A stretch of 64,000 nucleotides of DNA from Clostridiales bacterium (GTDB lineage: Bacteria; Bacillota; Desulfotomaculia; Desulfotomaculales; VENG01). Position 1 is the first letter of the stretch. Every line of letters begins with the position of its first letter. Below the pieces are notes generated by a model. That model searched no databases, was not told the DNA's origin, and was given only the letters and a program-made list of their open reading frames with translations. Positions 14,975 to 52,682 of the stretch are shown here, piece after piece. The stretch covers positions 25,930 through 89,929 of the forward strand of contig JADQBQ010000004.1 of the NCBI GenBank assembly GCA_016278505.1, given 5' to 3'. The translations under genes and the position numbers were made by a program.

Positions 14975-15059
14975 GTCGGAGTGGCGGAATCGGCAGACGC
15001 GCACGTTTGAGGGGCGTGTGGGGTAACTCGTGGGGGTTCAAGTCCCCCCTCCGACACCA
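14975..15059 (+). tRNA. tRNA-Leu (GAG); island integration target
   Basis: GTCGGAG...CTCCGAC acceptor pairing, long variable arm, anticodon loop TTGAGGG, encoded CCA. Confidence 0.95.
15006..15059 (+). repeat. attL-like direct repeat (54 bp, 3' part of tRNA-Leu)
   Basis: tttgaggggcgtgtggggtaactcgtgggggttcaagtcccccctccgacacca, identical to 52629-52682. Confidence 0.92.
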
Positions 15060-15190: not shown

Positions 15191-16165
15191 ATGGGAGGTA
15201 TGAAAATGGCACGGCGTAAGGGACTTAAGACATCACACAGCAGTACACTACCTAAAAATGGAGTAAAAGAAATTGATTTTACGGAAGCCGTCGATATCTT
15301 TTTGACCGGCATGCTGCTTAAGGGTCTAGCTCCCCGCACAAGGGAGTGGCATAAAGAAAACCTGTCAGCCCTTAAAAACTTTTTGACCCAGGAAGGAAAG
15401 AATACCGCACCGGTGTCTATGACAGAAAGTATTTTAAAGCAAAATTTTATCCTGCCCATGATTAAGCACGGATTCAAAATTAATACCATCAATGGCAGAA
15501 TCAGAACCTGCCGCAGCTTTTACACGTACCTTCTTAAAGAGGGATATATCTTGTCCAATCCTGCCAAGCGCCTCACCAAGCTCAAGCAGGACAAGCCAAT
15601 TATTGAAACCTTTACCAAAAATCAGGTTAACAAACTTTTATCAGTCATTAATAGGCAAACATTTGTTGGCTTTCGGGATTACGTTATCATTTTACTCTTT
15701 TTGGAAACAGGCATTCGGGTATCCGAGGCCGCAAGAATAAAAGTTGAACATATTTTGTTTGAGGAGCAGATGATTAGGATACATGGCAAGGGGGCTAAGG
15801 GGCGTATTGTCCCCTTTCAAACTAAACTAAAGGGGCTGATGTATAAATACCTAAAAGAGCGCAGTGAAGTTGACCATCCCTACCTTTTTATTAACCGGGA
15901 TGAAAAACCACTTAAGAAAAGAACGATTCAAGATAGGTTCTCCATCTACGGTAAGAAGGCAAATCTTAAGGGGGTTCGCTGCTCCCCTCACACCATGCGC
16001 CACACCATGGCCAAGTTTTACATTATGGCCGGGGGAGATGTTTTTAGCCTGCAAAAAATTTTAGGCCACGCCTCTCTTGACATGGTTCGAAGGTATGTCG
16101 AGCTTTTTGGCAGCGAGATAAAAGAACAGCACAAAAAATATAGTCCCATTAAAGATTTTACATAA
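15191..16165 (+). CDS. tyrosine recombinase/integrase
   Basis: LETGIRVSEAARI, SPHTMRHTMAKFYI, LGHASLDMVRRYV (R..HxxR..Y); probable start ATG 15206 after GGGAGGT. Confidence 0.92.
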   Translation: MGGMKMARRKGLKTSHSSTLPKNGVKEIDFTEAVDIFLTGMLLKGLAPRTREWHKENLSALKNFLTQEGKNTAPVSMTESILKQNFILPMIKHGFKINTINGRIRTCRSFYTYLLKEGYILSNPAKRLTKLKQDKPIIETFTKNQVNKLLSVINRQTFVGFRDYVIILLFLETGIRVSEAARIKVEHILFEEQMIRIHGKGAKGRIVPFQTKLKGLMYKYLKERSEVDHPYLFINRDEKPLKKRTIQDRFSIYGKKANLKGVRCSPHTMRHTMAKFYIMAGGDVFSLQKILGHASLDMVRRYVELFGSEIKEQHKKYSPIKDFT

Positions 16166-16183
16166 AAAAAGCGCCTGTTGGCG

Positions 16184-17158
16184 CTAAAAACTGCTTAAAG
16201 GGCTGTATTTATCATGCTGCTTTTTAACTTCGCCGCCCCAGAGGTTTACGTAGATTTTCACTGTGTCCATATTCTTATGGCGAAGTATCTTCTGCAGTGA
16301 AAAGGCATCCCCCCCGCCCAGAATATAGTATTTAGCGAAGGTATGGCGCAAGGTGTGGGGCGAGACGCGTACGTCAAAGATATTAGCCTTTTTGCCGTAC
16401 TTTTTAAACTGGTCCTGAATAGTGCTGCGGCTAAGGGCTGTCCCACGGATACTGGTGAATAAATGATCAGAATCATTAGGCCTTAGGTCTCTATAGTAAA
16501 GATATTTTTCTAGTATTCTTGCACACTTGCCCGAAAAAGGGACATGACCGCTTGAGCCTTTACCTGAGACCTTGATCATCCCCTCTTTTAAATCAACATC
16601 TTGAATTCGCAAGCCGCAAAGCTCGGCCAATCGGATTCCAGTGTCCAACAGCAAAAGGAAGATCGTATAATCACGAAAGCCGGTAAAGGTAGTCCTGTCA
16701 GGCTGCTCTAAGAGCCTTGCCACCTGATCTTTTGTAAAGGCCTGGATGGGCTCCCCTTTACCCCTCACCTTTTTTAAAGTCGAAGCAAAATTCGTCTCAA
16801 TATAATCTTCCTGGGACAGAAAGGTTATGTATTTACGCAGAGTTTTAATTCTCCCATTGATCGTATTTGGCTTATAGTTCTTACTTACCATGTATAAAAT
16901 GAGATTCTGCTTAATCATATCTTTGGTGAGCTTAGCTGGAGTTTTAATGATAATACCCTGCTTTTTAAGTATTTTTAACATGGCGGCCATGTTCTCCATA
17001 TGAAAGGCTATCGTACGTTGGCCTAAGTTTTCTGCCTGCATATCTGTAACAAACGTTTTTAAAGACTCTTTAATGGTAGTTTTGCGCACCAGCTTTGGTT
17101 CCATAGGAAGAACATTTGATGGCCTCTTTTTATAATTCTCTCTTTCTAATCCTAACAT
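16184..17158 (-). CDS. tyrosine recombinase/integrase (paralogue, convergent)
   Basis: LDTGIRLAELCGL, SPHTLRHTFAKYYILGGGDAFSLQKILRHKNMDTVKIYV. Confidence 0.92.
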   Translation of the reverse strand: MLGLERENYKKRPSNVLPMEPKLVRKTTIKESLKTFVTDMQAENLGQRTIAFHMENMAAMLKILKKQGIIIKTPAKLTKDMIKQNLILYMVSKNYKPNTINGRIKTLRKYITFLSQEDYIETNFASTLKKVRGKGEPIQAFTKDQVARLLEQPDRTTFTGFRDYTIFLLLLDTGIRLAELCGLRIQDVDLKEGMIKVSGKGSSGHVPFSGKCARILEKYLYYRDLRPNDSDHLFTSIRGTALSRSTIQDQFKKYGKKANIFDVRVSPHTLRHTFAKYYILGGGDAFSLQKILRHKNMDTVKIYVNLWGGEVKKQHDKYSPLSSF

Positions 17159-17379
17159 GTACTTTCACCTCCGATTATTTTAGCGACTTCATTTTAAACA
17201 AATGAATCCTTGGATAAAAGGAAAAAAACAAACAAAAAAATTCACTTGAAAAAAAGCGCAATTTTTTTTCAAGTGAACTATTTTAGCGATTAATTTCATG
17301 TGAAAAAAAAAGTAAATATATTTCCTTTTATATTAACTTCCTTGCACCTAAAATTATTCCCGTAAGTGGGAGGACCACT

Positions 17380-17502
17380 ATGATGAAATATGATGAATTA
17401 TTATTTCCAGAAGAGTATCATGAAGCGAACTGGTTTGAAATCTTAGTAACTAAAGCAATCGAAGTCCTTCTCGAAGAATTAGATGCGGAGGTGGAAGAAT
17501 GA
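17380..17502 (+). CDS. small acidic protein (40 aa) translationally coupled to the serine recombinase
   Basis: MMKYDELLFPEEYHEANWFEILVTKAIEVLLEELDAEVEE*, upstream gggagg, ATGA overlap with ATG at 17499; not in ORF track. Confidence 0.5.
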   Translation: MMKYDELLFPEEYHEANWFEILVTKAIEVLLEELDAEVEE

Positions 17503-18987
17503 ATGTCAACAAAGAAGTCAGTGCTTATATAAGGGCCTCTACCAATCAGCAGCAGCTGACCTTGGCATTTCAAAAGAGAAAAAACATAGAGGCCGCCCAA
17601 AACCTCGGGATCATATTAAAGGAAGAAAACATTTTCACTGATGCCGGGGTATCCGGCTTTAAAATCCCAATGGAGCAGCGAAAAAACCTGCAAGCAATGC
17701 TTAAAAAAGCAAAAAAAGGTGAGGTCAGCCATCTAATCGTTTTCAAACGGGACAGGTTAACGCGAAGGGCAAGGGAATATTTGAAAATAGCCCATTCCCT
17801 TCAAGAATATGGGGTACAAATAATTTTCTCTGACCCCGCTGAACATCCCTTTATTACTGATTATGGGTGGATGGTTGAATGCGTTTTTGCTGCTTTGCTG
17901 CAAAAAGAATGTGAAGGGATTAGGGAAAAAGTAATTCTCGGCCTGAAAACATCGCACAGCATGGGGCTCTGGACGGGTGGTCAGCCGGGATTTGGATTTC
18001 AATATGATAAAAATAGCAAGAAACTAAATGTCATTAGGGAAGAATCGGCAGCAGTTAAGCAAATAATTCATCTACTTGCAAATGGCAAAAGCCCCCAAGA
18101 AATTGCCCAACTTTTAAATAAACAAAACACTCTTTGGGCCGCCCGCAACGGCAAAACCGGCAAATGGACAACTGCCAAGATAAAACAAATCGGCAGTAAC
18201 CCCCTATTTTTAGGCATTTCAGAGCGGTTTGGCGAAAAGGTCCACTTAAAAGACCAAAAACCAATCGTGGATATGCAAATCTGGCAGCAAGCTCAAGAAA
18301 CCCTTGAAAAGTATGCGCCAGCTTCCAGATCAAAAAATAGTAAGAAAAAGGCAGCTTTTATTAGAAGGCCTTGTGTGCTGTGCGCAAAATTATGAAACCA
18401 CCTTCAGAGTAAGGAAGTTAGGCAAAAAATACAAATATTGTTGTCCCGATAGTAATTGCACCCAAAACTGTCCTAATAAACGAATAGACATCAATGAATT
18501 GGAATCTATGGTATTTTCTCACTGCAGCCACTGGTTTAGCAGCCTTGACAATAGGGTATTAGAAAAGAAGACCGGATTAGTATTACAAAACCGTCTGCGC
18601 GAGATAGAAACCAAAATCAACACCCTTAACAGTAAAAAGGAAAGGTTAGCAAAAGAAATAAGCCGCCACTCTGACAATTTCTGCAGGGAAACCCATGAAT
18701 TCAAAAAAAGGCAGCTCGAGAGTAAAATTATGAAACTTCATGAGCAAAAAACAGAAATAGGGAGAAAGATGAGTCACTTTAATAGCGCACAAAGTGAATT
18801 ATACGCATTGGGGAAACGGCAGGATAAAGTTTTGTCCATCCTTAAAGACTGGGAGAAAAGTTTTGCAAGCCTAAATTTTAACGAGCAGAAGAGTGTTTAT
18901 AACCAAATAATTAAGTTTATTTTGATTCACCCTTTTAGGATTGAAGCTTTAACCAATGATACAGAAATTCTGGGAGTTGCAGGCTAA
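17499..18987 (+). pseudogene. large serine recombinase, split by a frameshift near 18335-18360 (ORFs 17499-18395 and 18304-18987)
   Basis: ORF1 has resolvase and recombinase domains (AYIRASTNQQQLTLAFQKR, HLIVFKRDRLTRRAREYLKI); ORF2 continues with the zinc-ribbon/coiled-coil tail (LLLEGLVCCAQNY...CPDSNCTQNCPNKRIDINELE). Confidence 0.75.
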
Positions 18988-19009
18988 GTTTCAGTAAGGA
19001 GTGAGATAA

Positions 19010-20641
19010 TTGCCAATTTCAGACGCTTTAAAACCACAAACTCCCGTGGCCATTTACAACAGGTACTCGTCACACAAGCAGGAATCAGGCATGAGCATCG
19101 AAATGCAGATGCAGGCCGCGCAAAAAATAATTACAGAATATGAACTCCGTCTAACTAATACCTACCAAGACGAAAAAAAACCTGGGTATAAAACGCATTT
19201 TACCAGGCGTAAAGGCATGATGGAACTACTAAAGGATGCGCGAAAAGGCGTATTTAAAGCGGTTATCACACTATGCAGCGACAGGGTTTCCAGGGATGTA
19301 GTCCAGTTCATTTCAATTATAGAGATATTGGACCAATGTGGAATTCAGCTAATCTACTCCATGCCGGGGATGACCCAGCCCTTTGAGCAGGATATTGTAA
19401 GCGAAATGATTTCCTATGCCAACGCCATGCACGAGTCAGAAAGAACCAGCGCCAGGGTACGCGAAGCAATGAAAAACAAAGTTGATAAAGGAGAGTGGGT
19501 GGGCGGCAGCATACCCTTTGGTTACCAGTTAAACATTAAAACAGGCGCAATTGAAATTTTGCCTTTAGCGGCAGAAATCGTAAAAGATGTTTATCAAAAA
19601 TATATCCGGGGCTTTAGTTTTCAGAGTATAGCTCACTCTTTAGCCCCAGGTCATTCACCAACCGGAAGATGGACCAGATGGCAAATTGAAGGGATCATAA
19701 AAAACCCGTTTTATGCCGGATACCTAACTTGGAATAAAAGATTAGACCGGTCCAACAGCGCTTGGCGTAACCCCGCCGACTGGATGATGGTTGAGAGCAA
19801 GTATATTCCTAAAATCATAGATAAAAAGACCTGGGACATTGCCCAGGGAGTGCTTTTGAGAAAGAAAACCAACCGCATATCATCCAAACATTATTCGTCT
19901 CCCAACATACTAAAGGGACTTTTGTACTGCTCATGCGGACAAATGCTACTGCCAAAGGATAACCGGTCAAAGGATAACCGGTCAAAAAGCATTTTAAAAA
20001 GCGGCACAGAAAAGGTCTATGGAAATCGTATTTACAAATGCCCTAAAAAATGTTTACGGCTTCCGGCAGATACAATAGAAGAATTTGTCATTAACGATAT
20101 TAAAGAAATAATTGCCACTCTCCCAGAGGACGAACTATTATCTAAAATTGAGGAAAAAGTTAAATCAGAGATATCCGATGTTATTTTAGATATTGAAATG
20201 CTAGAAGAGCAGTTGGTGCACCTGAAAAATAAGGCCGCAAAATTTAAGGCTTTATCGGAAGAGGCAAAGTTAGAGCAAGACGATAGTGACCAGGAAAGCA
20301 AACTAGCTTGCTACAACGACATCGTAATGAATACCTCAAAAGAGATTCAACAAGTTAAAAGCATAATGCAAGAAAACAAAATATTTTTACGGCAAAAAGA
20401 ATCTCTTTTGACATTAAAAGCTGGATGGCTGGAGAAACTGGTAAGCATCCCAATGTTATGGGATCAAATGAGTATAGAGGAAAAGAAAGTGGTTACTGAA
20501 GAGCTTTACAGGAAAATTGTAGTTACTCCTAATAAAGAGGTCATTTTAGATAACAAAATCTTTCCACAGAAAAGTAAAAAAAGAAACTTGTTTGAAGGAA
20601 AGCTATTGTGGCAGTATGACAGTTTTATTCACACTAACTAA
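19010..20641 (+). CDS. large serine recombinase (site-specific integrase)
   Basis: VAIYNRYSSHKQESGMSIEMQ, TLCSDRVSRDVVQFISIIE, GSIPFGYQLN, LKGLLYCSCGQMLLPK, coiled-coil C-terminus; TTG start. Confidence 0.9.
   Translation: MPISDALKPQTPVAIYNRYSSHKQESGMSIEMQMQAAQKIITEYELRLTNTYQDEKKPGYKTHFTRRKGMMELLKDARKGVFKAVITLCSDRVSRDVVQFISIIEILDQCGIQLIYSMPGMTQPFEQDIVSEMISYANAMHESERTSARVREAMKNKVDKGEWVGGSIPFGYQLNIKTGAIEILPLAAEIVKDVYQKYIRGFSFQSIAHSLAPGHSPTGRWTRWQIEGIIKNPFYAGYLTWNKRLDRSNSAWRNPADWMMVESKYIPKIIDKKTWDIAQGVLLRKKTNRISSKHYSSPNILKGLLYCSCGQMLLPKDNRSKDNRSKSILKSGTEKVYGNRIYKCPKKCLRLPADTIEEFVINDIKEIIATLPEDELLSKIEEKVKSEISDVILDIEMLEEQLVHLKNKAAKFKALSEEAKLEQDDSDQESKLACYNDIVMNTSKEIQQVKSIMQENKIFLRQKESLLTLKAGWLEKLVSIPMLWDQMSIEEKKVVTEELYRKIVVTPNKEVILDNKIFPQKSKKRNLFEGKLLWQYDSFIHTN
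19954..19983 (+). repeat. 15-bp in-frame tandem duplication
   Basis: aaaggataaccggtc x2, encoding KDNRS KDNRS in the zinc-ribbon region of the serine recombinase. Confidence 0.8.
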
Positions 20642-32569: not shown

Positions 32570-32616
32570 AAGATAATCCCTCCCGTGTTATTGGTAATCA
32601 TATGATAACAACCGGG

Positions 32617-32636: not shown

Positions 32637-32688
32637 GTAGGGATTAATTTTTTCTAGCTGCATTGTTATTCAGCAACAGATTATTGTA

Positions 32689-34488: not shown

Positions 34489-36445
34489 ACCACCTTAATT
34501 CCTTAGCCTTCTGTTTTATTTCCTCACGGCTAAAAGTAAATTCACTTATACTTTCATATTTATCCATTAAGTTTAATAGTTCGCTGTTTTCCACGTCATC
34601 CGTTGTATCATTAAACCGGCCAAACAGTTTTACTAATTGTTCCTGCGGACCCCGCAGCATTGGAAACACTTTTTGCAGCAAAAGAAAATCAAAGGCCTTA
34701 GCCCTAGTCAGCAGCGGACTATGTTGGGTACGGGGGATATTAAGCAGGTACTTATCTATATGGCGCAACATGCGGTAACTAATTCCTTTTCCGGCATCCG
34801 CAGCATTAATGTGCTGGTGCATCTCGAACAGAAATTCTATCTCGGAGTTATTTAAAGCTAACCCTTTATCACCATGATTTACCCACTGCAAAAACTGCCC
34901 GGTAGTCACCTCATAATCCATTTCCTCGAAGGGTTCACTTGCAAGCCCTTCTTTCAATTTATCAAAAGGCAAAACTTTAAGGCGCAGTACATTGGCCCGG
35001 TTTAACACCTTATCGCTGAAAGTATAAGTAGACTCATCAATGTTTACGGTACCGACAAACAAGACATTGCTGCCTATCTTAATTTGAGGCGGGTACTGGC
35101 TGGAATTGTAAATGCGGTCTTTGAGCTCAGGGTTATACAACTGCAAACTTCTATTTTTCTCCGGCAGTTCCAAAATACTTAAGAACTGGCCAAAATAATG
35201 CTCTACCCGGGCAAGATTCATTTCATCTAAACAAAATAGATACAAGCGATCTGGATGTCCTTCAGCCTCCAGGAGTAAATTAACAATACCTGTATCCGCC
35301 GGGCGATAAATATTGTTGGCTGTATCCAAAAAGCCAATCAAATCCGTATCATCAACCCAGTTGGGACGTACCGGTAAAAATTTAAAGCGTCCGTTATTGC
35401 TGTTTTCATTTAGACCAAGTGCCTCAGAGTACATTCGGACCAGGTGCGACTTACCGGTGCCCGACATACCCGCCAGTATTACTAACCCACCCACCTTTAG
35501 GGCTGTGTGAAAATTTAAAAGGTCATCTTCGTCGTATAATAGGCCAGAGGCACGACACAGCCTGTCCAATCGATATATAAATTTTTCCTCGTCTTTATTT
35601 CCGGCAGGCTCATTGCTTTTCTCTGCTTCGGCAGAAACAGTCTCCGCAAAGTCTTCAGATTCCCCATGAGTTCCCTGGGTTTCGGCGCTCTCATTATTCT
35701 CTTCAACTTCTGTTGCCATGAAAGTTTTGGGGGAAATTACTTCTCCATCGCTGTCCAGCATGGCCTGAAAATCCTTGAGATAAGTAAAAGATTCAACAAA
35801 GGCTACTTCACCGAAAGTAATTATGCTTTCCTGTTCCAACAAGTCATAAGGCACGCGCATAATTTCATCGTTAAATTCGTATACCCATTTTTTATGACGT
35901 TCTACCCTGTTATAAAAACTCCCGTATAAGTAACCGTTAACATAAACGTATATTGGATCTACTTTAGGCATCTGTAATGGGTAATAGCGGAAAGGTCCTA
36001 AAGGCGATTGTTTAAGCAGTAATGCCTCATAATCTTCTTCGCTTTTTTGGTTTAGGTGCAACATGGGAATCAACCTAGATTCTGTATCTATTCTCACAGG
36101 TTTAGGTAAAACCATTACAGGTTCCGCGACATACAAAGTTTCACCTTTTTTGCGTTGTTCGGAGGGTCGAAACAGCACAATTTTATCCATTAAAAACGCT
36201 TCAAATTTTCTTGCCCTTATAGGCCAATCTTCATAATAGTCGTCCTCAAATTCGTAATCTCTAAATTTATTGGCATAACAAGTTATGGTTTTATCTAAAT
36301 GTAAAGATTCCGGGCCGTCAGAAATTATTTTCAGTGCAAATTGTATTTCCCCTATTTTATTTACAAAGGTTACTAAATCCCTATCCGGGGGTAAATCATC
36401 ACGTTCAGCTAAAATTCCTACCAGAATGCAGTCCAGGTCGTTCAT
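34472..36445 (-). CDS. McrB-like AAA+ ATPase/GTPase
   Basis: Walker A LAGMSGTGKSHLV; LFCLDEMNLARVEHYFGQFLSILE; VNIDESTYTFSDKVLNRANVLRL. Confidence 0.9.
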   Translation of the reverse strand: MNDLDCILVGILAERDDLPPDRDLVTFVNKIGEIQFALKIISDGPESLHLDKTITCYANKFRDYEFEDDYYEDWPIRARKFEAFLMDKIVLFRPSEQRKKGETLYVAEPVMVLPKPVRIDTESRLIPMLHLNQKSEEDYEALLLKQSPLGPFRYYPLQMPKVDPIYVYVNGYLYGSFYNRVERHKKWVYEFNDEIMRVPYDLLEQESIITFGEVAFVESFTYLKDFQAMLDSDGEVISPKTFMATEVEENNESAETQGTHGESEDFAETVSAEAEKSNEPAGNKDEEKFIYRLDRLCRASGLLYDEDDLLNFHTALKVGGLVILAGMSGTGKSHLVRMYSEALGLNENSNNGRFKFLPVRPNWVDDTDLIGFLDTANNIYRPADTGIVNLLLEAEGHPDRLYLFCLDEMNLARVEHYFGQFLSILELPEKNRSLQLYNPELKDRIYNSSQYPPQIKIGSNVLFVGTVNIDESTYTFSDKVLNRANVLRLKVLPFDKLKEGLASEPFEEMDYEVTTGQFLQWVNHGDKGLALNNSEIEFLFEMHQHINAADAGKGISYRMLRHIDKYLLNIPRTQHSPLLTRAKAFDFLLLQKVFPMLRGPQEQLVKLFGRFNDTTDDVENSELLNLMDKYESISEFTFSREEIKQKAKELRWFGYAS

Positions 36446-36470
36446 TATAATTAAGCCTCCTATTAACTAT

Positions 36471-37571
36471 CTATTTTGCTATATGATTCGCACTTTGAAG
36501 GATATTGTTTTCGACTTGCTTCATACTAGCTACTTCAATCAATCCGTTGAATTTCTTTAAAAATGAAATACGTTGTCTGTGATTGCAGCGGCTGGAAATA
36601 AGGAAAATCAAGTCAAATTCTTCAGAGCGACCACCATTTATATACTTTTCTTCAGCTGTAGATAGGTCAACAGACTTTAATTCCACCGGGACGCCGTTAA
36701 GGAATTTGCATTGCCTGCGTGGTTTATCGCCGATAATTATTGCACGCAGCACATCTCTTGCAGGGTTTTCCTCAGGGTACTTTGCCTGCCACAAATCTAA
36801 AACAGAGTTTTTGTCGGCTAGCTGCTGCTCATATTCTCTGTTTTGTTCAGCTAACTGATTAATTTGCATTTCTTTCTCGGCTAGCTCTTTTTCCAACTTT
36901 TCTTTTTGTTTGGTTACCCAAGCTAGGTTTTCTTTTAGCTTGGAGATTTCGGTTGCTTTTTCTTGGTTAAGTTTATTTATTTTACCTAACTCATCCTTGT
37001 ATTTTTCTTCCAACCTGCCTCTTTGGGATTTTTCTTTCTGTAATTTGGCATGGAAGGACTCATTTAGGTTTTGGAGTTTTGATTTTAGTTTACTGACTTC
37101 CTTTTGGAGTCTTATATTTTCTTCTTTAAGGCCATTGCTTAGTTCAACTATTCCCACCTCTTTATCATTATCCTCATCCTGCTGGTCAAGCCTCTCCATC
37201 AATTCTGTAATATAGCTTTTTACTTCTTCAGATTCAAAATCATTTTCTTCTTGTAATGCAACCAGTGCAAAAACATAATCAACGCCCCCATAATCTTTTA
37301 TTAAATTGCGTTCATTCGATTTAATAGTATCAAGGTCTTCATCGGCCATCGCTTCATATAAGCCTGGATTCAATCTAAAAATTACCGCTGCAAAAATACT
37401 TGCAGTTTCCGCTTTTGTAGCAAATTTTACAGTTTTATTTCTAATTAACTGCTTTGGTGCTTTTGATAAATCTTTTGAAAAACCTGGTAGGCTTAAATCT
37501 ATCTCTTTCGCCAGTTTTATTAGCCGGTTTTCATCCAAGTTCTCTACGTACCATTTGTAAAACTCCTTCAT
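36471..37571 (-). CDS. coiled-coil protein, first gene of the McrBC-like operon
   Basis: Long heptad-like region (LKEENIRLQKEVSKLKSKLQNL...EKLEKELAEKEMQINQLAEQNREYEQQLADK) with a distinct C-terminal domain. Confidence 0.75.
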   Translation of the reverse strand: MKEFYKWYVENLDENRLIKLAKEIDLSLPGFSKDLSKAPKQLIRNKTVKFATKAETASIFAAVIFRLNPGLYEAMADEDLDTIKSNERNLIKDYGGVDYVFALVALQEENDFESEEVKSYITELMERLDQQDEDNDKEVGIVELSNGLKEENIRLQKEVSKLKSKLQNLNESFHAKLQKEKSQRGRLEEKYKDELGKINKLNQEKATEISKLKENLAWVTKQKEKLEKELAEKEMQINQLAEQNREYEQQLADKNSVLDLWQAKYPEENPARDVLRAIIIGDKPRRQCKFLNGVPVELKSVDLSTAEEKYINGGRSEEFDLIFLISSRCNHRQRISFLKKFNGLIEVASMKQVENNILQSANHIAK

Positions 37572-39435: not shown

Positions 39436-40926
39436 TTGAGAGTGGAGCAAAATCAACCAAAACACTCATTTGTGCTTTTTACTCATAGAGTTGACCATAA
39501 AATGTTTAACCGTCTATTGGACTACAATAAGCAGGGAATTAAGGTGTACCTTTTCACTACCGATTCCCTGGAACATTATGAAACAGATGCTGTTTTGGAA
39601 GAAGCAAGGAAGTACGGATTTTTGTATTGGCATGAAATCCCAATACACGAAGCATTACCGAAGAATAAGGTTGAATTTGTAGACGGCCAAATTACAAACC
39701 CGCAACTGTATGACTACCTGTGCCAAAAATCATCTTTTAACCACGAACAATATTCCATAGAACATGAAAGGTCCGATAACCATTTGATGATATCGGCCGG
39801 TGCCGGCACCGGTAAAACTACCATCATGATTAACCGCCTGCTCTTTCTTAAGCATACCATGCCCGCCCTCTCGTTTGCCAACATAATCATGATTACATTT
39901 ACAAATGAAGCAGCGGTACAAATGCGCCAAAGACTCACATCACTACTAATGAACTATTACTACATTACAAAGAACAGGCGTTATTTGGAGTGGATTGAAG
40001 AAGCCCAAAGGTTGCAAATCTCGACGGTGCACTCCTTCGCAAAAAAATTCTTGCAAACGGCGGGGCAGGAGTTGGGTTTTCCTTCTTCATTCTCAGTTAG
40101 GTCATTCCGGTTTGATAAAAAGCACATTATTCAAAAGTGGATTAATGAGTTCGCTCGCCTTTATCCGGACCAATTCCAACACTTTGCCTTTATCCCACAG
40201 TACCATCTTGTTAACGCAGTAATCTTCGTCAATACAGTATTGGAAAATAGGTCCATAAGTGCAGATAAGATTGCCAACCAGTTAGATTTAGGTCACGATA
40301 AAAAACCCTTTTCAGTTCTTCTAAAGTACCTGTTGTATCACTTGCAACAAGATTTAAACCAGACTAAAAAGGAAGAAAACAAATGGGAAATGTCAGATCT
40401 TGTCCGCGAACTGGAGCGTTTAAAAGGTACAAGCAATCTGCAAGGGAAATTTGACACCCTTTATTTAATGGTGGATGAATTTCAAGATACAGATATTGTC
40501 CAGGTAAGATTTGTTTTATGGTTATTGGATAAACTAAATTTTAGGCTATTTGTGGTGGGGGATGAAAAACAGAGTATATACCGTTTCCGGGGTGCAGATT
40601 ACACGGCCTTCAGACAGCTGGAGGAAGGAATCAAAGCACGTGGTCAAAAGCTAACCCAAAAGTCCTTGGTCAAGAACTATCGTACAACCGCTAAACTACT
40701 AAACCAGTTAAACCCTTTATTCGAGCAGTGGGACAAAGATGTTAGCAAATTTCACTGTACCGGCAGCGACCGGCTGGAGCCTGTAATAATTGAAACGGAA
40801 TCCAGTAATGGATTGGATAAATTCATTACCTGGGCCAAGCTAAAGGAAATTCTCAATAAGTTGATTGACCAGGAAACGGCTATCCCGCGACCTCCTCATT
40901 ACCGAGATAAATCCTTTGTATTATAA
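39436..40926 (+). CDS. UvrD/Rep-like SF1 helicase, C-terminally truncated, with N-terminal extension
   Basis: ISAGAGTGKTTIMINRLL (Walker A), LMVDEFQDTDIVQ, VVGDEKQSIYRFRGADYTAF; ends before the usual C-terminal motifs. Confidence 0.85.
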   Translation: MRVEQNQPKHSFVLFTHRVDHKMFNRLLDYNKQGIKVYLFTTDSLEHYETDAVLEEARKYGFLYWHEIPIHEALPKNKVEFVDGQITNPQLYDYLCQKSSFNHEQYSIEHERSDNHLMISAGAGTGKTTIMINRLLFLKHTMPALSFANIIMITFTNEAAVQMRQRLTSLLMNYYYITKNRRYLEWIEEAQRLQISTVHSFAKKFLQTAGQELGFPSSFSVRSFRFDKKHIIQKWINEFARLYPDQFQHFAFIPQYHLVNAVIFVNTVLENRSISADKIANQLDLGHDKKPFSVLLKYLLYHLQQDLNQTKKEENKWEMSDLVRELERLKGTSNLQGKFDTLYLMVDEFQDTDIVQVRFVLWLLDKLNFRLFVVGDEKQSIYRFRGADYTAFRQLEEGIKARGQKLTQKSLVKNYRTTAKLLNQLNPLFEQWDKDVSKFHCTGSDRLEPVIIETESSNGLDKFITWAKLKEILNKLIDQETAIPRPPHYRDKSFVL

Positions 40927-42340: not shown

Positions 42341-42661
42341 TTATCGAGACAGCAAGGTTTTTTTCTCTATCTCTAACTCAGCTCTTTGCTTTTTAAGTTG
42401 ATGGGTGTATCTCTCTATGGACTCAAGTATGGGAGTATGAGTGTATATTTTTATTAGGTCATATTGATTGGCTATTTTTTTTATTTCTATATTGATTTTA
42501 AGGAGGGACATATTAATTTCATCTATTGTGGCCCGCTTTCCTTGGACCTCGGCTGCTTGCATTTCCTCCAATTTTTGGTCAAGTATTTCTTGTGCCTTTT
42601 CAACTTTATTTTGCTTGACATATTGAAGAATGTCACTAATAATACCGCCTGTCATGTCCAT
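42341..42661 (-). CDS. small coiled-coil protein (last tightly linked gene of the dynamin operon)
   Basis: Charged helical composition; 3-bp gap to preceding gene. Confidence 0.65.
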   Translation of the reverse strand: MDMTGGIISDILQYVKQNKVEKAQEILDQKLEEMQAAEVQGKRATIDEINMSLLKINIEIKKIANQYDLIKIYTHTPILESIERYTHQLKKQRAELEIEKKTLLSR

Positions 42662-42664
42662 TCT

Positions 42665-43114
42665 CTACTTTTCCTTCAACGCACTCTTTATCGCACAATC
42701 AAACGTATCAAGGACTTTCTCTTTTACTTCATCTGAAATATGTGATTGGTTAAGATATGCATACAAATCACGAAGCATACTTTGAACTCGTTCGCTCTTA
42801 CTTTGCATCGTTTGACGTTTCTCAATTTCACGCCGCACAAAGTCTTCTGTTTGAACACGCATTAGATCAATTCCTTTATCCATGCGTTTTATCTCCGCTT
42901 CAGATGCAAGTTCCACTTTATGGATATCTACAATATCCTTAAAAATATTGACGACATCGGGTAAAGATTCAAGTATTTTCAATCTCACTTCATGTTCTCG
43001 TTCGCGTTCCCGTTCATCAGGCTTATTAAATCTTCCAAACGGAGCATCAACAATTTCACCCTCAAATACTTCTGGTTGCTCGACTCTTTGTAGCATTTGC
43101 CTTCGTTCAGCCAT
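42665..43114 (-). CDS. small helical protein in the dynamin operon
   Basis: Overlaps dynamin-like gene 3 by 1 bp; highly charged helices. Confidence 0.7.
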   Translation of the reverse strand: MAERRQMLQRVEQPEVFEGEIVDAPFGRFNKPDEREREREHEVRLKILESLPDVVNIFKDIVDIHKVELASEAEIKRMDKGIDLMRVQTEDFVRREIEKRQTMQSKSERVQSMLRDLYAYLNQSHISDEVKEKVLDTFDCAIKSALKEK

Positions 43115-44931
43115 TAGCTTGCAATCCTCTCCCTTTCAATATTTTGCAATATGGATTGGATTTCAGATAACTGTTCCTCAATCCTATTGATGTTTTCTTC
43201 ATTTCCTTCATACTCTTTTAATGAAAATGCTTCTTTATATTCTCTAAAGAAGCTCTCTACTTGCTCAAGGTTATGCCTCTTCAATTCTAACAGGTCATTA
43301 TCGACTGCTTTAATGGATTTTTCTTCCCAAAGCGATACAGCTTTCCCAACCTGTTTGATAAGTTCTGACTGCCATAGCGCTACTTCATATAAGTAAAAGC
43401 CTGCTTCAACGATAACCGCTGCTGCGGCACCAATCGCCCTCGTTGATGTGGCACCTATTCGACTTAAAAATCTAGCAAGTTGGTTATGAGTCTCCCTAGA
43501 AAAAGTCTTCCCAACTAAGTCACCAGCCTTTTTAAGACCTTTTTTTGCAGCATTTGCAACACCAGCACCTGCTCCGCCAACCCCACCATATTGGCGGAAA
43601 AAGGCTTGAAGTGCTTGGTCAGCAAAACGTTGGGCAACCCTATTACTAACATTTAAAACCAGTTGCTCAAAAGCCCTATTTTCGATATGGATTTTTCTTT
43701 CCAACTTCTGGACAGCGGCATTTAACATCGAATCAATTTCTTCATTTAATTGATCTAACTCTCTTTCAATATAGGCCCTTATATTCTTTGTTTCTTTCTT
43801 AGCAAGCATAGGCATGAGATGTGTTTGGACATACCCTGCACATTCCTGTTGATGAGTCCAACGGTTAGATGATGTAATTTCTGATTGAATGCAAGCAACA
43901 ATTTCATCTGCACTGCTTTTAAACATTTTCTTAGTTGTTGTATTTACTCTTTCAAACGTACTTTCTATTTTAGTTTCCACAACCTGCTTTTTAGCTAGAA
44001 ATTCTGCTGATGTTTCTTCAAGTAATTTCCTCTCTTCATCGGTAACCAACTGTTCCACTTTCCGTTTCTCTAAGTACCCCTGAACATCAAATAGTAAGCT
44101 TTTTTGAAACCCTAAAAGGGAATGATGGAGGGCCATTTTTCTTTTTTCAGAAGAGATTTCATTTTTAATGCTCTCCCACAACTCCTCGGCTGCAGGCAAA
44201 GGCGGTTCACCATCCATGGTAGAGACTTCTCCATGCACAAGATAAACGGGAATCTCTTGATGAAGTAAGTCCTGAACGTGATTTATAATTTCCTTTACTC
44301 TTCGGTCATTTGTCGCTTTATTTTCGGGAGTCCGATTAATAACTAGATAAAATGTCATATCTTCTCTAAACAGCTCTTCAATTAACCCAATGAACTCTGC
44401 ATCACTTTCGTTTACACCTACCCGATAACTGATAACATATATAATAATATCGCTATTCGGCATAAAGGACTTGATAATTTTTTCATGATTTTCATGAATA
44501 GAACCATATCCTGGTGTGTCAAAGAAACGTAGACCTTTCAATCCTTTTGGATAAGATGGAGTTAGTAGCCTTAGCCGTTCATACTGTTCTGGCAAGTTTT
44601 TGCTAAATTGCCCGAACTGTTCTTTAGTTAACGTCTCCAATTTAGCATTTTTAGTAACGGCAAAGTATTCAAAGTTTTTTATAGCTGGATCATCCATGAT
44701 TTCAACAACAGCCCCTGTCGTCGGGTTCGGACCAGTACGAAGGATGTTACTTCCTAAAAGACCATTAAGAATACTGGATTTTCCACTGCTTGTTTCACCA
44801 AGCAGCGTAACAAAGCTCTCTGGATATTCAATGCGTTCTTGCAAAAAATCAAATAGCGTTCTAAAGTCCTGACACGCAACTTTATCAACTACTGTCTTGA
44901 TAGATTTCATATTACTGACTAATTGGTTCAT
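43114..44931 (-). CDS. dynamin-like GTPase 3
   Basis: G1 LLGETSSGKSSILNGLLG, G2 NPTTG, G3 FFDTPGYGS, weak G4 NRTPE; C-terminal Gly/Ala-rich hydrophobic segment. Confidence 0.88.
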   Translation of the reverse strand: MNQLVSNMKSIKTVVDKVACQDFRTLFDFLQERIEYPESFVTLLGETSSGKSSILNGLLGSNILRTGPNPTTGAVVEIMDDPAIKNFEYFAVTKNAKLETLTKEQFGQFSKNLPEQYERLRLLTPSYPKGLKGLRFFDTPGYGSIHENHEKIIKSFMPNSDIIIYVISYRVGVNESDAEFIGLIEELFREDMTFYLVINRTPENKATNDRRVKEIINHVQDLLHQEIPVYLVHGEVSTMDGEPPLPAAEELWESIKNEISSEKRKMALHHSLLGFQKSLLFDVQGYLEKRKVEQLVTDEERKLLEETSAEFLAKKQVVETKIESTFERVNTTTKKMFKSSADEIVACIQSEITSSNRWTHQQECAGYVQTHLMPMLAKKETKNIRAYIERELDQLNEEIDSMLNAAVQKLERKIHIENRAFEQLVLNVSNRVAQRFADQALQAFFRQYGGVGGAGAGVANAAKKGLKKAGDLVGKTFSRETHNQLARFLSRIGATSTRAIGAAAAVIVEAGFYLYEVALWQSELIKQVGKAVSLWEEKSIKAVDNDLLELKRHNLEQVESFFREYKEAFSLKEYEGNEENINRIEEQLSEIQSILQNIERERIAS

Positions 44932-44933
44932 TT

Positions 44934-46748
44934 TTAAATAGCCACCTCTATCTTTTCCAAATAGCTTAAATCGTCTTCAATCTTCTGACGCCGTTCCCCA
45001 ATCTCTTCCTCAGAGAGTTTTATGTTCCGGCGGTGCTCTTCCCTATCAGCTTCTAGTTGTTTCTCTTGTGCTGCTATGAACTGCTCTAAACTTTTATTTA
45101 TACTGGTAAAATAATCGTCAACATGGTCATTGATTGAATTAAGTAAACTATCTTTAAACTCTTCGATTGGTCCTTCTAGATCTGACATTGTAGCTTCCAT
45201 TCGCGTATCCTCAACATATTCCTTTGTTTTCTTTCCGATAAAGCTTGAAAACAAACTAATGCCAATGCCTACCACACCACCTACGACAGTACCAACTGGC
45301 CCCCCAATCGCTGTGCCAATCGCTAAACCAGCATAGATTCCTGTTATTGAACCGCCAATGCCAATGGTTGGTGCCAACCCCTTTTCGTACTTAAATGCTG
45401 ATTCCTTGTAAAAATCAGCAAGACCGTTGTATGTGTCATCCATATTTCTTACTTCCAGGTCTCCGATTTCAACTTCCATGAGCTTTTTCACTTCAAATAA
45501 CTTGTCATTTAATCCTTCAATGGCATCTAAGGCAAACATCTGCTCATTTTCTCGAAGAACCCTGGTTAGAAGATCACCATCAACAACTTTATTACCCGTC
45601 ACCCTCCTCATTTCATTACGTAGGTTTTCTGCTTGTTTCTTACTTTGCACATGTGCGTAGTTTCGCAAATCCGTTTCGAATCGTTGAATACTCAGCCTAA
45701 TTTGTGAAATTTTATCCCTGTTAGAATTAATAATATCCTCAAACTTTCTTTCTTGTTCACGGTACTTTTTACGAAGTGTTTTTCTATCTAACTGGCTGTC
45801 TCGCAATTGTTCTTCAAGCTTGCTTTTGATTCTTCCAACCAATAGTCGAATATCATCTGAAAACTTTTCAAAAATTGTAGTCCGCCATGTTTTCGCGATT
45901 TCTGAAATGTAATTCCTCAACTCCGGAATTCCAGACTCTTCCATAACGACTTCATCATTTTGAAGACAACTATTTAGGGCTTTATATACATTTACAATCC
46001 GGATGTCAATATTTTCGTTTGTTTTGTGGTTTCTTGCAATTTCCGTTAACACATCCTTGTTATGCTTTAAACCCTCATTTACCTCTTTCCAACTTTCATC
46101 TGTCCATTGGTTTTGTATAAACCATGCCTTTGTCAATTTTGGCCATGCGGTGCTTAAAAATACTCGCTCACTTCTGGTGATTGGAGGAACCGTTCTCAAC
46201 AAAAATATTGCTGCAGACAGCTTTTCAATATAATCCATAGTTGTTTTTACATTTCCCTGAGTAAGACTAGATACGCCTGGCAAATCAACAAATACCAGAC
46301 CTTCTTTTAATATGGAATCGTTTTTAAAAATTACAATATGAGATACGTTTTTCTGATTAGCATAATTGTAATAGTTATGTACGTATTGCTCAATTTCCTT
46401 TGCTTCATACAAGATATTCGGTTCTTTTTCATCTAACAAATATACGCAAATCTGGCCATCAATATCTTTACCATATCGAACTTCGACAGGGATACAAGTT
46501 GTTTCGTCAGCATCAACGGGCAAAATCAAGTCATCCATTAATAATGCATTAAGGAGACTACTTTTGCCTGAGCCTTGAACCCCTAATACAGGTATTAAAA
46601 ACTCATCTTTGCTTATGTTATTAAGCTTGTGAGATATGTAATTTTTATACGTCTCCTTTCCTCCATCTCCAGTTAAAATCGGCAAATACCGGTCTGCTAA
46701 TTCCAAAAACCTTTCTTCTTCTATTATTGACTTAATCTTTACTGTCAC
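44934..46748 (-). CDS. dynamin-like GTPase 2
   Basis: G1 VLGVQGSGKSSLLNALL, G2 DETTC, G3 FVDLPGVSS, G4-like NQWTDE; glycine-rich hydrophobic hairpin. Confidence 0.88.
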   Translation of the reverse strand: MTVKIKSIIEEERFLELADRYLPILTGDGGKETYKNYISHKLNNISKDEFLIPVLGVQGSGKSSLLNALLMDDLILPVDADETTCIPVEVRYGKDIDGQICVYLLDEKEPNILYEAKEIEQYVHNYYNYANQKNVSHIVIFKNDSILKEGLVFVDLPGVSSLTQGNVKTTMDYIEKLSAAIFLLRTVPPITRSERVFLSTAWPKLTKAWFIQNQWTDESWKEVNEGLKHNKDVLTEIARNHKTNENIDIRIVNVYKALNSCLQNDEVVMEESGIPELRNYISEIAKTWRTTIFEKFSDDIRLLVGRIKSKLEEQLRDSQLDRKTLRKKYREQERKFEDIINSNRDKISQIRLSIQRFETDLRNYAHVQSKKQAENLRNEMRRVTGNKVVDGDLLTRVLRENEQMFALDAIEGLNDKLFEVKKLMEVEIGDLEVRNMDDTYNGLADFYKESAFKYEKGLAPTIGIGGSITGIYAGLAIGTAIGGPVGTVVGGVVGIGISLFSSFIGKKTKEYVEDTRMEATMSDLEGPIEEFKDSLLNSINDHVDDYFTSINKSLEQFIAAQEKQLEADREEHRRNIKLSEEEIGERRQKIEDDLSYLEKIEVAI

Positions 46749-47488
46749 TATTTGTTAGACCTCCCTCTAAACCACTTTTTGAAAAATGGTTGATTAGCCC
46801 ATTTTATTTCCCTCTCAACTTCTTCAACCCTACTTGAAATATTATTCAGTTCTTTTTCAACACGACTCAAAACCTTGGTTTCTATTTGATCAAGGCATCT
46901 CCCAACTTTGTCCTCAATTGTCTCAAACACGTACTGTACACGAGTTTCATGATCATTTTGTTTTGTTTTAATTTCGTTTAATTGTTCATAAACCTCTATT
47001 TTGATTCTATTGCTACTATCCTTAAACTCTTTACTTTCTTTTTGAACTGATTGGTGAAGTATACTTGTTGTTTCCACAATCGTTGTAATTTGTTTATTTA
47101 AGTTCTTACCAAGTTCCTCGATATTTTCAATTTTTCTAGTAACCAAACTCAGAAGTTCTCTTTTTTCGGCCAGCAATACTTCTTTGACCGCATCAATTTG
47201 TTTTTCACTATCTTTTTTGATTGAATTAACTAGTATATTAAGGTTATCTTCTAAAGTGTCCGTTAAATCCCCCATATCTTCTTCAAGCCGGGTAGTCTCC
47301 TTCGCAATATTTTTTTCTATATCTCTAATATAATCATGCAGCTGGGAAGACATTGCTTGCACCATTCTGTTATTGTCACTCTTAAAACTCTCAAAACTTT
47401 GTTCAACTCCTTTTGACATCCTACTTTCAACTAATTCCAGAATTGATTTCGTTGTCTCATCGACTTCAATCATTACAGATTTGCTCAT
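46748..47488 (-). CDS. coiled-coil protein between dynamin-like genes
   Basis: Long helical heptads; basic C-terminus FFKKWFRGRSNK; overlaps both neighbours. Confidence 0.75.
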   Translation of the reverse strand: MSKSVMIEVDETTKSILELVESRMSKGVEQSFESFKSDNNRMVQAMSSQLHDYIRDIEKNIAKETTRLEEDMGDLTDTLEDNLNILVNSIKKDSEKQIDAVKEVLLAEKRELLSLVTRKIENIEELGKNLNKQITTIVETTSILHQSVQKESKEFKDSSNRIKIEVYEQLNEIKTKQNDHETRVQYVFETIEDKVGRCLDQIETKVLSRVEKELNNISSRVEEVEREIKWANQPFFKKWFRGRSNK

Positions 47489-50138
47489 TAAAAATTCCTC
47501 CTCTGCAGTCTATTAGTGCTTTAATAAATGAACGAATATGATCCTCCTCACCAGGAATAGCTGTTAAATATTGATAATTAACTTTTATATTATGTAGGAA
47601 TTCTTGAGCATCTGCGATTATGGTTTTGGGTTCGTTCAGTTGCAAACTCGCCATGGAGTACAGTGGGTTTTTATCGTTCACAAGGACCTTTCCTTTTTTT
47701 AATAAATTAAGTTCACAAATTAGTTCATACAAAACACGAACTGCTTCATCTAAATTGCGACCTTCTTTGAATTCCTGGATTGATTGAATAACGCAGTTTA
47801 TTGGTATTTTATGACAGTTTGGCATTTCATACAGCAAACTCTTAATAAACCTTTTTCTAGCTTGTCCACTTTGTATCAGATGAATTAGTACATAAATATT
47901 ATAATTACCATTTTGTAATAGCAACTTTAGCTCCTTAAACACCTGGGGATGGAGCATCTGTTCATTCACGAACAAGAGTTTATTATTTTTTTTGGGGATA
48001 ACCATTCCGTTATTTTCGAGCTTCTTCTCTTCATCTGTACTGAAGGTTATATTTAAATATCGTTCGGAATAGGACAATAGAGAATGGGTATCCCATCCCC
48101 AGATCAAAGTACGAGTTAAGTTCTTTAGATATTTCCTGTCCTCCCTCTGGACCAACTCCCAACACTTCTTAAAGTGAAGGTTTAGGAAGTGATAACTTAG
48201 TTTAAAAAGGTAAAAGGTTTCTTCTTGAATGCTAACTTGCGAATAATCCTTCGTTGTCTCTTTTGCCTGTGTTTTTTTCTGTGACTTCACCGAAGTAATT
48301 CTTTTAAATTCCTCTTCCCCTTTCACCGTCCTAACGACTCTTTTTATATCTTCCAAGACAGCAACCATTTCTTGCTGTTCCAATAAATTACTGCGTTTTT
48401 GTTCAAGTTCCATACTCTGTCGTTGCACTTCTTCTTTCGCCTTCGTCAAAAATTTACCTAAACGATTTTGCCATTGATCAATAAAACCATAGAAGGAATG
48501 AGATAATTTTTGTTGATAGGAATTTAAACCTTTTGATATAGCTTGAAAATCAATAACCTCAACATCCTTAGTTTGATACTCATAACCCCAATCCTCATCT
48601 AGAAAATCACCAAAAAATCTGGCTATTTTATTACCTAAACCACTTTTTTTTCTTCGATGTTCTTCTTGGATAATTTTCTTTTTTACGGAAAAGTAGTGCT
48701 GGGTGCGAACGGATTTAGGTAAAATATCATTTTCATAATCCTTTGACTGAAGATTTAACAATTCTAAAAAATCACTTACTTTTCCATTCAGGTCCCGTAT
48801 ATTTGCAATAAATGCTTTTTCTATTGTTTTAGCTTCATCTCTTATATAGTTTAGCAATTCTGTGCATGAATCAGTGTCTTCGTTATCTAACATTTCTATT
48901 TTGTTTATTGTTGCTGATGTCTCTTTTTCAAGCTGCACCAGTTTTTCCATGAGAATCTCTCTTGCAGACACTGTTTTATCATTTAGCTGCTTCTGTTTAT
49001 CATGTAGGTATTGCAACTCTCTTTCCTGTTCACTGGTAATTTTCTCAAGAGTTTCCACATCACCGACAATTTTTTCTTCACGTTCTTGGATGCTCGTTAA
49101 ATGTCTTAAAATCTGATTTGTCCGTTCTACATATAACTTTGGCCTAATTATCTTTTCATGCTCTTTCATATTGTCAACTAAAATGTTAAACTTGGATTGT
49201 CTTATTTTCTGACAATCACTCTCTCTCCTACCGTCAACAGCTCTTTTCGCAGATAACTGAACAATATTAACTATCTCATTCAGATTGGGATCAATGCTTT
49301 TTAATATCCTTTCAATTCTCTTAATGTGTTCCCTTGCCACTTGGTCTTTCGTCTTTAATACCTCTCCACCTTTGCCAATTTTAGGTTCCACGGAATCAAG
49401 CATATTTTGGATAATGATTAACGGTTTCTGATGCTCATAAATCGTATGTAATATTTCCCTTGTAATTGAATCGGAGTTTGCTTTTAAAGTGACCACATAC
49501 ATACATAAATCTACAGTTGGTAATAGCATCTCCATCGTGATCTGTTCATGCTTTTCAAGTCCGTGGGCGTCTAATCCAGGGCTATCAATAATTTGTATCT
49601 TCTCAGGAAAAAGAAAGTTGGGTGATTTAACATTAATTATTTTTACTTTATATTTGTTGTTTTCGTTAAAGCGCTCGTCTCCATATATTTGAATTTTCTC
49701 TCTCAATTGATTCTTCGGTATGTTGACAAAGGTTCCATTTTCAAAATAAACTACAGCCTCGACATATTTGCCCTTAGAGCAGGTAATTAATGTACCTGAA
49801 GTAGGTCTAACAGCCGTCGGTAGGATGTCATCTCCTAATATGGCATTTAATAACGTCGATTTACCGCTACTGGTTACCCCTACTAACCCCACTCGAATGT
49901 AATTTTTTTCCCACTGGGACATTCGGTCATTCAACCAATCAATATTGCTTTTGAAATAACCCTTAATGGATTCGTTTTTCGAAAAGACCTTAATTAGTAC
50001 TTGTGCTATTTGTTTCTCGTTTTTAACCTTGTTCACTTTTATTAACCACCTAGTTTTAACTCTTGTAATATTCATATTAACAGTGCCTAAAGTTGTTAAG
50101 TTTATTTTACCGGTTACACTTCTGGCCGATCTTTGCAA
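47466..50138 (-). CDS. dynamin-like GTPase 1 (large)
   Basis: G1 LVGVTSSGKSTLLNAILG, G2 RPTSG, G3 IIDSPGLDAHG, G4-like NMLD; true start probably internal to the track ORF. Confidence 0.88.
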   Translation of the reverse strand: MQRSARSVTGKINLTTLGTVNMNITRVKTRWLIKVNKVKNEKQIAQVLIKVFSKNESIKGYFKSNIDWLNDRMSQWEKNYIRVGLVGVTSSGKSTLLNAILGDDILPTAVRPTSGTLITCSKGKYVEAVVYFENGTFVNIPKNQLREKIQIYGDERFNENNKYKVKIINVKSPNFLFPEKIQIIDSPGLDAHGLEKHEQITMEMLLPTVDLCMYVVTLKANSDSITREILHTIYEHQKPLIIIQNMLDSVEPKIGKGGEVLKTKDQVAREHIKRIERILKSIDPNLNEIVNIVQLSAKRAVDGRRESDCQKIRQSKFNILVDNMKEHEKIIRPKLYVERTNQILRHLTSIQEREEKIVGDVETLEKITSEQERELQYLHDKQKQLNDKTVSAREILMEKLVQLEKETSATINKIEMLDNEDTDSCTELLNYIRDEAKTIEKAFIANIRDLNGKVSDFLELLNLQSKDYENDILPKSVRTQHYFSVKKKIIQEEHRRKKSGLGNKIARFFGDFLDEDWGYEYQTKDVEVIDFQAISKGLNSYQQKLSHSFYGFIDQWQNRLGKFLTKAKEEVQRQSMELEQKRSNLLEQQEMVAVLEDIKRVVRTVKGEEEFKRITSVKSQKKTQAKETTKDYSQVSIQEETFYLFKLSYHFLNLHFKKCWELVQREDRKYLKNLTRTLIWGWDTHSLLSYSERYLNITFSTDEEKKLENNGMVIPKKNNKLLFVNEQMLHPQVFKELKLLLQNGNYNIYVLIHLIQSGQARKRFIKSLLYEMPNCHKIPINCVIQSIQEFKEGRNLDEAVRVLYELICELNLLKKGKVLVNDKNPLYSMASLQLNEPKTIIADAQEFLHNIKVNYQYLTAIPGEEDHIRSFIKALIDCRGGIFNEQICND

Positions 50139-50505
50139 AAGGCCATTAAATCTTTGTATTCAGGTCCCTCCGGCTAGTATCGCCCAATGCAAAAAATTGG
50201 CTGTTTTATTGTGAAGGTGGCGCCATAACAACTTCGGCAAAGGCCAAGTCAAATTTTTAGCTTGTTACTCCACTGTCAAGGGTTTGGTCACTTGGTTATT
50301 AACTATCTCCTCTTCTACAATTGAACTGATTTTTGTCAGTAAAATAATTTCCTTATTTCAATTATCACACTCACCTGTGGCATATGCTAAAAAGCATCAT
50401 AACGGAATTAGTAAGGTACCGTTTAAGATCCCCCTCCCAAGACATAGGGTATTAATTTTTATCTAGGCAAATGCCTCAACAAGGTCAACAACTTGTGTTA
50501 TACCC

Positions 50506-51492
50506 CTATTGATATAGTTCCATCATTTCACAAATAGTTTGTTTCATTTCTTCACGAAATTCCGGGGGTGAAATTACTTCTAGATACTGGGCCTGGCTAA
50601 GTAACCACATCTTAACACCCCGACCAAATACTTCTGCTTCTATGACCGAAATATCCCCTTCATAATCTATAACGTGTGCCGTAGGAAGACGATCCAGAAC
50701 TGCTTCCAAGGATTTCCCCCAGAACTTGAACCTAACAGTTAATACGCGCCCTGTTTGCATAAACTGAACGCGTCTGCGTAATTCTCCGTCTTTATATTTC
50801 TCAATTACAGGGTTTGACTCAGAGACACGAAAATGTTCGTCTAAAATCATGTAATTTTGTATATGATCCAGCCTATAAATGGCAGGAAATTCATAGTCAA
50901 AGCCATGAATAAATGCAATTAGGTAAAAGTAAAACTCTGAAAATACTATTCCTTGGGGCTCAAGAACACGTTTAACAATGCTGTTTGAGCCAACCTTCAT
51001 GTAATCAATTTCAATTCTTTTATGCCGATTTATCGCTAAGCTCAGGTGCCAGATGGTTTGTGAAAGTGGTTTGCCATATCGGGTGGGGTTATAGTGGAAA
51101 CGCTCGTGAAGAATAACCTCTTTGACATGTTTGCGCTCCTCAGGAGCACATTGTAAAATCAACTTATCTAGAAGACTTTCCATCTCATATTTTGTTAACG
51201 CCCGGCTCTCCAAGAGAACTTTTGCCGTAAGAAGTACTTCTTGACTGGTTAGCCAAATATGCTCGTCCCGATACAATACATAACCGCATTTTTTCTTGTC
51301 ATATTCAATGAGACTATCGATGGAATAATGGTTAGCCAGGAAATTCCGCAAGTCTTCAATGTCGCGCTGTATTGTTTTTTCACTGACGACGAATTGTGTA
51401 GCATAACGTTTCTTATTAACTACCTTGCCCTTGTGTAAATCCTCATAAATTGCCAATAGCCGTGAAATCCTAGATTCATTCATTTCATCCAC
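50506..51492 (-). CDS. HTH-WYL domain transcriptional regulator
   Basis: VNKKRYATQFVVSEKTIQRDIEDLRNFL HTH and LEPQGIVFSEFYFYLIAFIHGFDYEFPAIYRLDHIQNY WYL-like region. Confidence 0.88.
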   Translation of the reverse strand: MDEMNESRISRLLAIYEDLHKGKVVNKKRYATQFVVSEKTIQRDIEDLRNFLANHYSIDSLIEYDKKKCGYVLYRDEHIWLTSQEVLLTAKVLLESRALTKYEMESLLDKLILQCAPEERKHVKEVILHERFHYNPTRYGKPLSQTIWHLSLAINRHKRIEIDYMKVGSNSIVKRVLEPQGIVFSEFYFYLIAFIHGFDYEFPAIYRLDHIQNYMILDEHFRVSESNPVIEKYKDGELRRRVQFMQTGRVLTVRFKFWGKSLEAVLDRLPTAHVIDYEGDISVIEAEVFGRGVKMWLLSQAQYLEVISPPEFREEMKQTICEMMELYQ

Positions 51493-52628: not shown

Positions 52629-52682
52629 TTTGAGGGGCGTGTGGGGTAACTCGTGGGGGTTCAAGTCCCCCCTCCGACACCA
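52629..52682 (+). repeat. attR-like direct repeat (54 bp, tRNA-Leu 3' end)
   Basis: Exact copy of 15006-15059. Confidence 0.92.

Follow-up and report, generated by a model that had tools for sequence, protein, structure and literature searches.

What are the six closely packed genes at 42341-50138 of the window (the whole 64,000-nucleotide stretch of contig analyzed here), three of which encode dynamin-like GTPases? Do they constitute one conserved unit, does this unit correspond to a system that already has a name, and what could it do for its host? The earlier note had read the locus as a three-GTPase operon with coiled-coil partners and a neighboring WYL regulator, and had suggested a role in defense.

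The six-gene cassette

The cassette consists of six minus-strand genes packed as one operon and transcribed in the order A, B, C, D, E, F. The genes overlap or nearly abut as first described, the spacing being -23 bp between A and B, -1 bp between B and C, +2 bp between C and D, -1 bp between D and E, and +3 bp between E and F. The genes, with the evidence used for each, are as follows.

47466..50138, minus strand: gene A, dynamin-like GTPase, annotated as 890 aa (Dynamin_N match, orthologs in five loci, AF2 model and Foldseek)
46748..47488, minus strand: gene B, coiled-coil partner, 246 aa (alignment, held-out profile, heptad signal)
44934..46748, minus strand: gene C, dynamin-like GTPase, 604 aa (Dynamin_N match, BDLP and IniA profiles, hydropathy)
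43114..44931, minus strand: gene D, dynamin-like GTPase, 605 aa (Dynamin_N match, mitofusin-1 profile, AF2 model and Foldseek)
42665..43114, minus strand: gene E, conserved partner with no fold assigned, 149 aa (held-out profile)
42341..42661, minus strand: gene F, conserved partner with no fold assigned, 106 aa (held-out profile)

The annotated gene A begins at a TTG codon, and its first 34 residues are without a clear counterpart in the orthologs. A GTG codon at 50036, behind an AGGTGG ribosome site, is probably the true start. It would give a protein of 856 aa, which is the length of the Paenibacillus ortholog.

Conservation and distribution

Complete cassettes with all six genes in the same order are present on plasmid pART37 of Paenibacillus sp. 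37 and in Fuchsiella alkaliacetigena, Tumebacillus flagellatus and Synergistales PG1894_167. A Clostridia metagenome-assembled genome carries A-B-C-D up to the end of its contig. The gaps between genes range from -28 to +23 bp across the copies. Judged by its sequences, the set is thus beyond chance, with five complete copies and a sixth, truncated one spread over different lineages, and the proposal that three GTPases and dedicated partners form one unit that is kept elsewhere is borne out. Since four other lineages have the cassette with the same gene order, it appears to be a real and as yet unnamed membrane-remodeling machine.

The small partners were followed with held-out profiles. These recovered the E orthologs in all five loci (E-values of 2.5e-6 to 6e-22) and likewise the F orthologs (6e-6 to 3e-18). 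The B profile found its ortholog in four of five loci; Fuchsiella B was identified by position and size only. The Clostridia copy, which lay outside profile building, scored 423 for A (truncated), 25 for B, 482 for C and 216 for D (truncated).

The cassette is conserved yet rare: two genomes have it among about 400 sampled from the phylum. A and D were found at full length in the same two of 397 genomes (E-values near 0 and at most 1e-254, respectively). The next-best matches, at about 1e-28 and 1e-26, cover the G domain only, and there is nothing between. The pairwise identities of C and D covary across the copies, with a rho of 0.92. When genome contigs were searched, protein C alone gave no match and a profile of A recovered further copies. 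Profile searches of IMG/VR with C, D and A revealed no cassette, the one match being to a short G1 region only. Phage records contained no homolog of D and one match to A, which was limited to the G domain.

The dynamin-like GTPases A, C and D

Proteins A, C and D share a dynamin-like architecture. Pfam Dynamin_N, which has a cut-off of 27 bits, matches A with 65 bits (E=8.5e-18), C with 74 bits (1.7e-20) and D with 79 bits (6.5e-22), and the match spans the G domain in each. The G1 (GxxxxGK[ST]) and G3 (DxPG) motifs are intact in all 15 GTPase sequences from the five complete loci. Three distinct dynamin-like GTPases are encoded, as proposed. The switch-I region contains an invariant serine (S114) in A at the place where D has an invariant threonine.

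Profile comparisons with dynamins of solved structure relate C to BDLP (2.9e-21) and, over its whole length, to IniA (3.8e-15). The D profile matches mitofusin-1 (4.6e-10), and the match of A to BDLP (3.1e-14) is limited to the G domain. AF2 models of A (mean pLDDT of 69) and D (62), which are of modest to low confidence and were built on shallow alignments of four sequences, show long helices after the G domain. The top Foldseek matches of both models are BDLP, IniA, the Campylobacter DLP pair and mitofusins. The A model matches BDLP with an E-value of 3.6e-14 and IniA with 1.1e-13, and the D model matches IniA with 6.9e-15 and BDLP with 9.4e-15. Normalized by query length, the global TM-scores of these models are in the range of about 0.2-0.36. 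These low values are attributed to the hinged nature of such proteins and to the shallow models. A helical neck and trunk thus follow the G domain in A and D according to AF2 and Foldseek, with modest confidence, and in C according to its full-length profile match to IniA. The architecture of all three proteins is dynamin-like, as anticipated.

In a tree of G domains, A, C and D each form one clade with a support of 100/100. The clades are set on long stems and are apart from the Leo proteins and from other dynamins of the order. Because of the long branches, the deep branching order is unsure.

The tips of the three stalks

Protein C contains a hydrophobic, glycine-rich segment (residues ~460-505) that resembles the BDLP paddle by hydropathy and is found in every ortholog. 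Protein D has a conserved Gly/Ala-rich tip (GGVGGAGAGVANAAKKG), followed by a hydrophobic stretch at residues ~500-518 that is likewise present in every ortholog. The presence of a hydrophobic tip in both proteins leads us to infer that C and D are a membrane-inserting pair, as in Campylobacter DLP1/DLP2 and in LeoA/LeoBC. The pairwise identities of C and D covary across the copies, with a rho of 0.92.

Protein A is composed of a G domain, a helical neck and trunk with a β-hairpin tip, and a C-terminal α/β domain (residues ~675-882) that is specific to this family. Its stalk is without a hydrophobic segment in any ortholog, as judged by hydropathy, and the AF2 model places a β-hairpin at the position of the tip. 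The C-terminal domain carries conserved GWD, QxG and NDxNPxYS motifs. It has no Pfam match, and when this domain alone was compared with plasmids, the Paenibacillus ortholog was the only match.

The partner proteins B, E and F

Protein B is conserved at its ends, which carry the motifs IEVD..TK (N-terminal) and W..P..KKWF (C-terminal), and its heptad-rich middle part is variable. The heptad signal of B exceeds that of shuffled sequences. E and F have no consistent heptad signal and no credible Pfam family. The coiled-coil designation of the earlier note is therefore upheld for B but not for E or F. The weak matches of the three partners in Pfam, NCBIfam and PADLOC (Spore_YpjB, a ZorA tail, RNase P and others) were judged to be compositional.

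Comparison with named systems

The gene set was compared with PADLOC, NCBIfam and Pfam, and no named system has a matching composition. A search of the open-access literature found no paper on this gene set; novelty is provisional, as subscription papers lay outside this search. That the composition belongs to no recognized system, as the earlier note had it, agrees with these comparisons.

One of the closest named systems is found among the Leo proteins. Eleos (LeoA and LeoBC; LeoABC in ETEC) is an anti-phage system listed in PADLOC. Like the cassette, it has adjacent dynamin-like GTPases and occurs on genomic islands. The best PADLOC models for D and C are in fact LeoA (67 bits) and LeoBC (61 bits), so that the cassette could be conceived as a divergent Eleos with extra subunits, in which D is LeoA, C is LeoBC and A is an added third dynamin. 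We regard this as very unlikely. The same genome contains a genuine Eleos pair on another contig (C8:20657-24167) that scores 283 bits for LeoA and 269 bits for LeoBC, compared to 45 for D and 55 for C in the same searches. The NCBIfam LeoA model does not match D, none of the cassette proteins has a full-length BLAST match to a Leo protein, and C, D and the Leo proteins fall into separate clades of the tree. Eleos has two dynamins, whereas the cassette has three and, in addition, three conserved partners. An identity of the cassette with Eleos proper is ruled out by the model scores, the tree and the missing BLAST matches, as well as by the occurrence of the genuine pair elsewhere in the genome.

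DynA of Bacillus subtilis is also dynamin-like and membrane-acting and provides an anti-phage precedent (PMC8844932). However, it is a fusion of two dynamins in one protein without partners, whereas the cassette has three separate GTPase genes. The NCBIfam DynA model gives D 52.6 and A 42.4 bits against a cut-off of 1600. A DynA-like frame of 997 aa with two Dynamin_N matches is found in the same genome (contig C56:10526-12322). The Campylobacter proteins Cj-DLP1/DLP2 (5owv, 5oxf) are heterotypic dynamins with a G domain, neck and trunk, and are matched by A and D in Foldseek. They comprise two subunits, but lack B, E and F and a third GTPase bearing a C-terminal α/β domain. BDLP, IniA and mitofusins, the top structural or profile matches of A, C and D, act as single proteins or pairs, and the absence of a hydrophobic tip sets A of the cassette apart from them.

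The tRNA-Leu island and its neighborhood

The features that define the genomic setting of the cassette are as follows.

15006..15059, plus strand: left direct repeat, attL-like, 54 bp, identical to the 3' part of the tRNA-Leu gene at 14975-15059
15191-16165, plus strand, and 16184-17158, minus strand: tyrosine integrases (Pfam Phage_integrase, 4e-37 and 1.4e-35)
17499-18395 and 19010-20641, both plus strand: serine recombinases (Pfam Resolvase, 1.2e-22 and 2.3e-19)
50506..51492, minus strand: WYL/WCX transcription regulator, local neighbor (Pfam WYL 4.5e-9, WCX 8.4e-6)
52629..52682, plus strand: right direct repeat, attR-like, exact 54-bp copy, right end of the island

The exact recurrence of the tRNA-Leu repeat at 52629-52682 delimits an island of 37.6 kb, which carries the cassette, together with the WYL gene, as cargo at its right end. 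The location inside a tRNA island, already noticed earlier, is thereby given its boundaries. The integrases and recombinases (15191..20641) cluster at the tRNA end. The GC content of the cassette is 36%, compared to about 43-45% in the chromosome flanking the island at the left side of the window. The 22-bp core of the repeat occurs at only two other sites of the genome, at 22151 and, with one mismatch, at 22090. These nested partial repeats, which lie within the island, suggest two elements in tandem, and the island is probably composite. A TerD gene at 52802 falls outside it.

The WYL regulator is present just upstream of gene A, as described. No WYL gene accompanies the other copies for which the upstream side can be read, so that the regulator is excluded as a member of the cassette and is a local neighbor outside the conserved unit. 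It may nevertheless regulate the cassette.

Other cargo of the island includes a PDC-M26A AAA gene, a gene for a DUF2357/PDDEXK_7 nuclease, and VWA and WYL genes. These are found, with a coiled-coil gene, on one strand of the 30153-37571 region, which has the look of a McrBC-type candidate. The UvrD and PDDEXK genes of the 23678-30031 region resemble AddAB; the C-terminus of UvrD and a nuclease domain are encoded by a separate reading frame. Adjoining the cassette, at 39436-40926, is a lone frame of 496 aa for the N-terminal part of a UvrD-type helicase, the C-terminal half of which was not recognized.

The neighborhoods of the other copies differ. The Paenibacillus cassette is directly preceded by a Dpd locus (dpdA, two dpdJ, dpdK, dpdF, queC/queE) and followed by a PDC-S49 candidate. 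The defense neighborhood in Fuchsiella is weak, and Tumebacillus has housekeeping neighbors and no defense genes. The expectation of known defense genes nearby thus holds here and in Paenibacillus, is weakly supported in Fuchsiella, and fails in Tumebacillus. The Synergistales contig begins just upstream of gene A, so that neighbors can be read downstream only. They include an AIG1/DUF697 GTPase, two frames that appear similar by eye and a frame with a GHSRG lipase-like motif (L060 8239-12665). Directly upstream of the Fuchsiella cassette is a UvrD helicase with an N-terminal part that, by eye, is RelE-like (L058 6403-8469).

Proposed function

DynA of B. subtilis reduces phage release and slows phage-induced lysis (PMC8844932), and heterotypic pairs of bacterial DLPs bind and tether membranes (PMC6104087). 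It is from these precedents and from the genomic setting that a defense role for a membrane complex of three dynamins is proposed. Carriage on a tRNA-Leu island and on a plasmid, together with sporadic occurrence, is as expected of anti-phage systems. By sequence and analogy, the chances are about even that the six gene products form a single heterotypic dynamin-like complex, with three GTPases and three partners, whose genes are borne on mobile DNA and which serves in anti-phage defense. Other functions of a mobile island are possible.

One of these is the repair of membranes under envelope stress, where the machine would seal or stabilize the membrane when antibiotics, toxins or pore formers attack it, and phage protection would be a side effect. 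DynA acts at membrane lesions generally (PMC8844932), and with IniA it would provide a precedent for such a role. IniA and BDLP are the nearest profile or fold relatives of C, D and A, and the lack of defense neighbors in Tumebacillus would also fit. Nevertheless, the sporadic distribution, the island and plasmid locations and the adjacency to Dpd argue against repair, as does the DynA-like protein already present in the genome, and we consider it unlikely. Alternatively, the cassette could serve the mobile element itself, in vesicle release, secretion or element transfer. LeoABC of ETEC influences vesicle release (PMC4159319), and the island and plasmid locations would agree with such a function. 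However, no conjugation or secretion genes were recognized beside the examined copies and there are Gram-positives among the host lineages, which makes this function highly improbable.

The anti-phage reading can be formulated more specifically, at odds that we put a little short of even: the cassette would be an unnamed system built as an obligate complex of three dynamin-like GTPases and three adaptors, with A as a soluble regulator carrying a novel C-terminal domain. It would then be the first bacterial machine with more than two types of dynamin. Within the broader anti-phage reading, C and D would be the membrane-inserting pair, soluble A would sense infection or control assembly, B would act as a coiled-coil tether whose length varies, and the role of adaptors would fall to E and F. 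Infection would cause the complex to assemble with GTP at the cytoplasmic membrane and to remodel it. The infected cell would be killed or arrested, or else its membrane would be stabilized against lysis; killing or arrest is slightly preferred.

To date, bacterial dynamins have been described as single proteins, as pairs and as fused pairs, and the way in which any of them stops phage is poorly understood. The apparent division of labor in the six-gene set, with an inserting pair, a soluble regulator, a tether and adaptors, could allow sensing to be separated genetically from assembly and from membrane action. Furthermore, dynamin-based systems stack in one genome, which contains Eleos, a DynA-like protein and the six-gene cassette.
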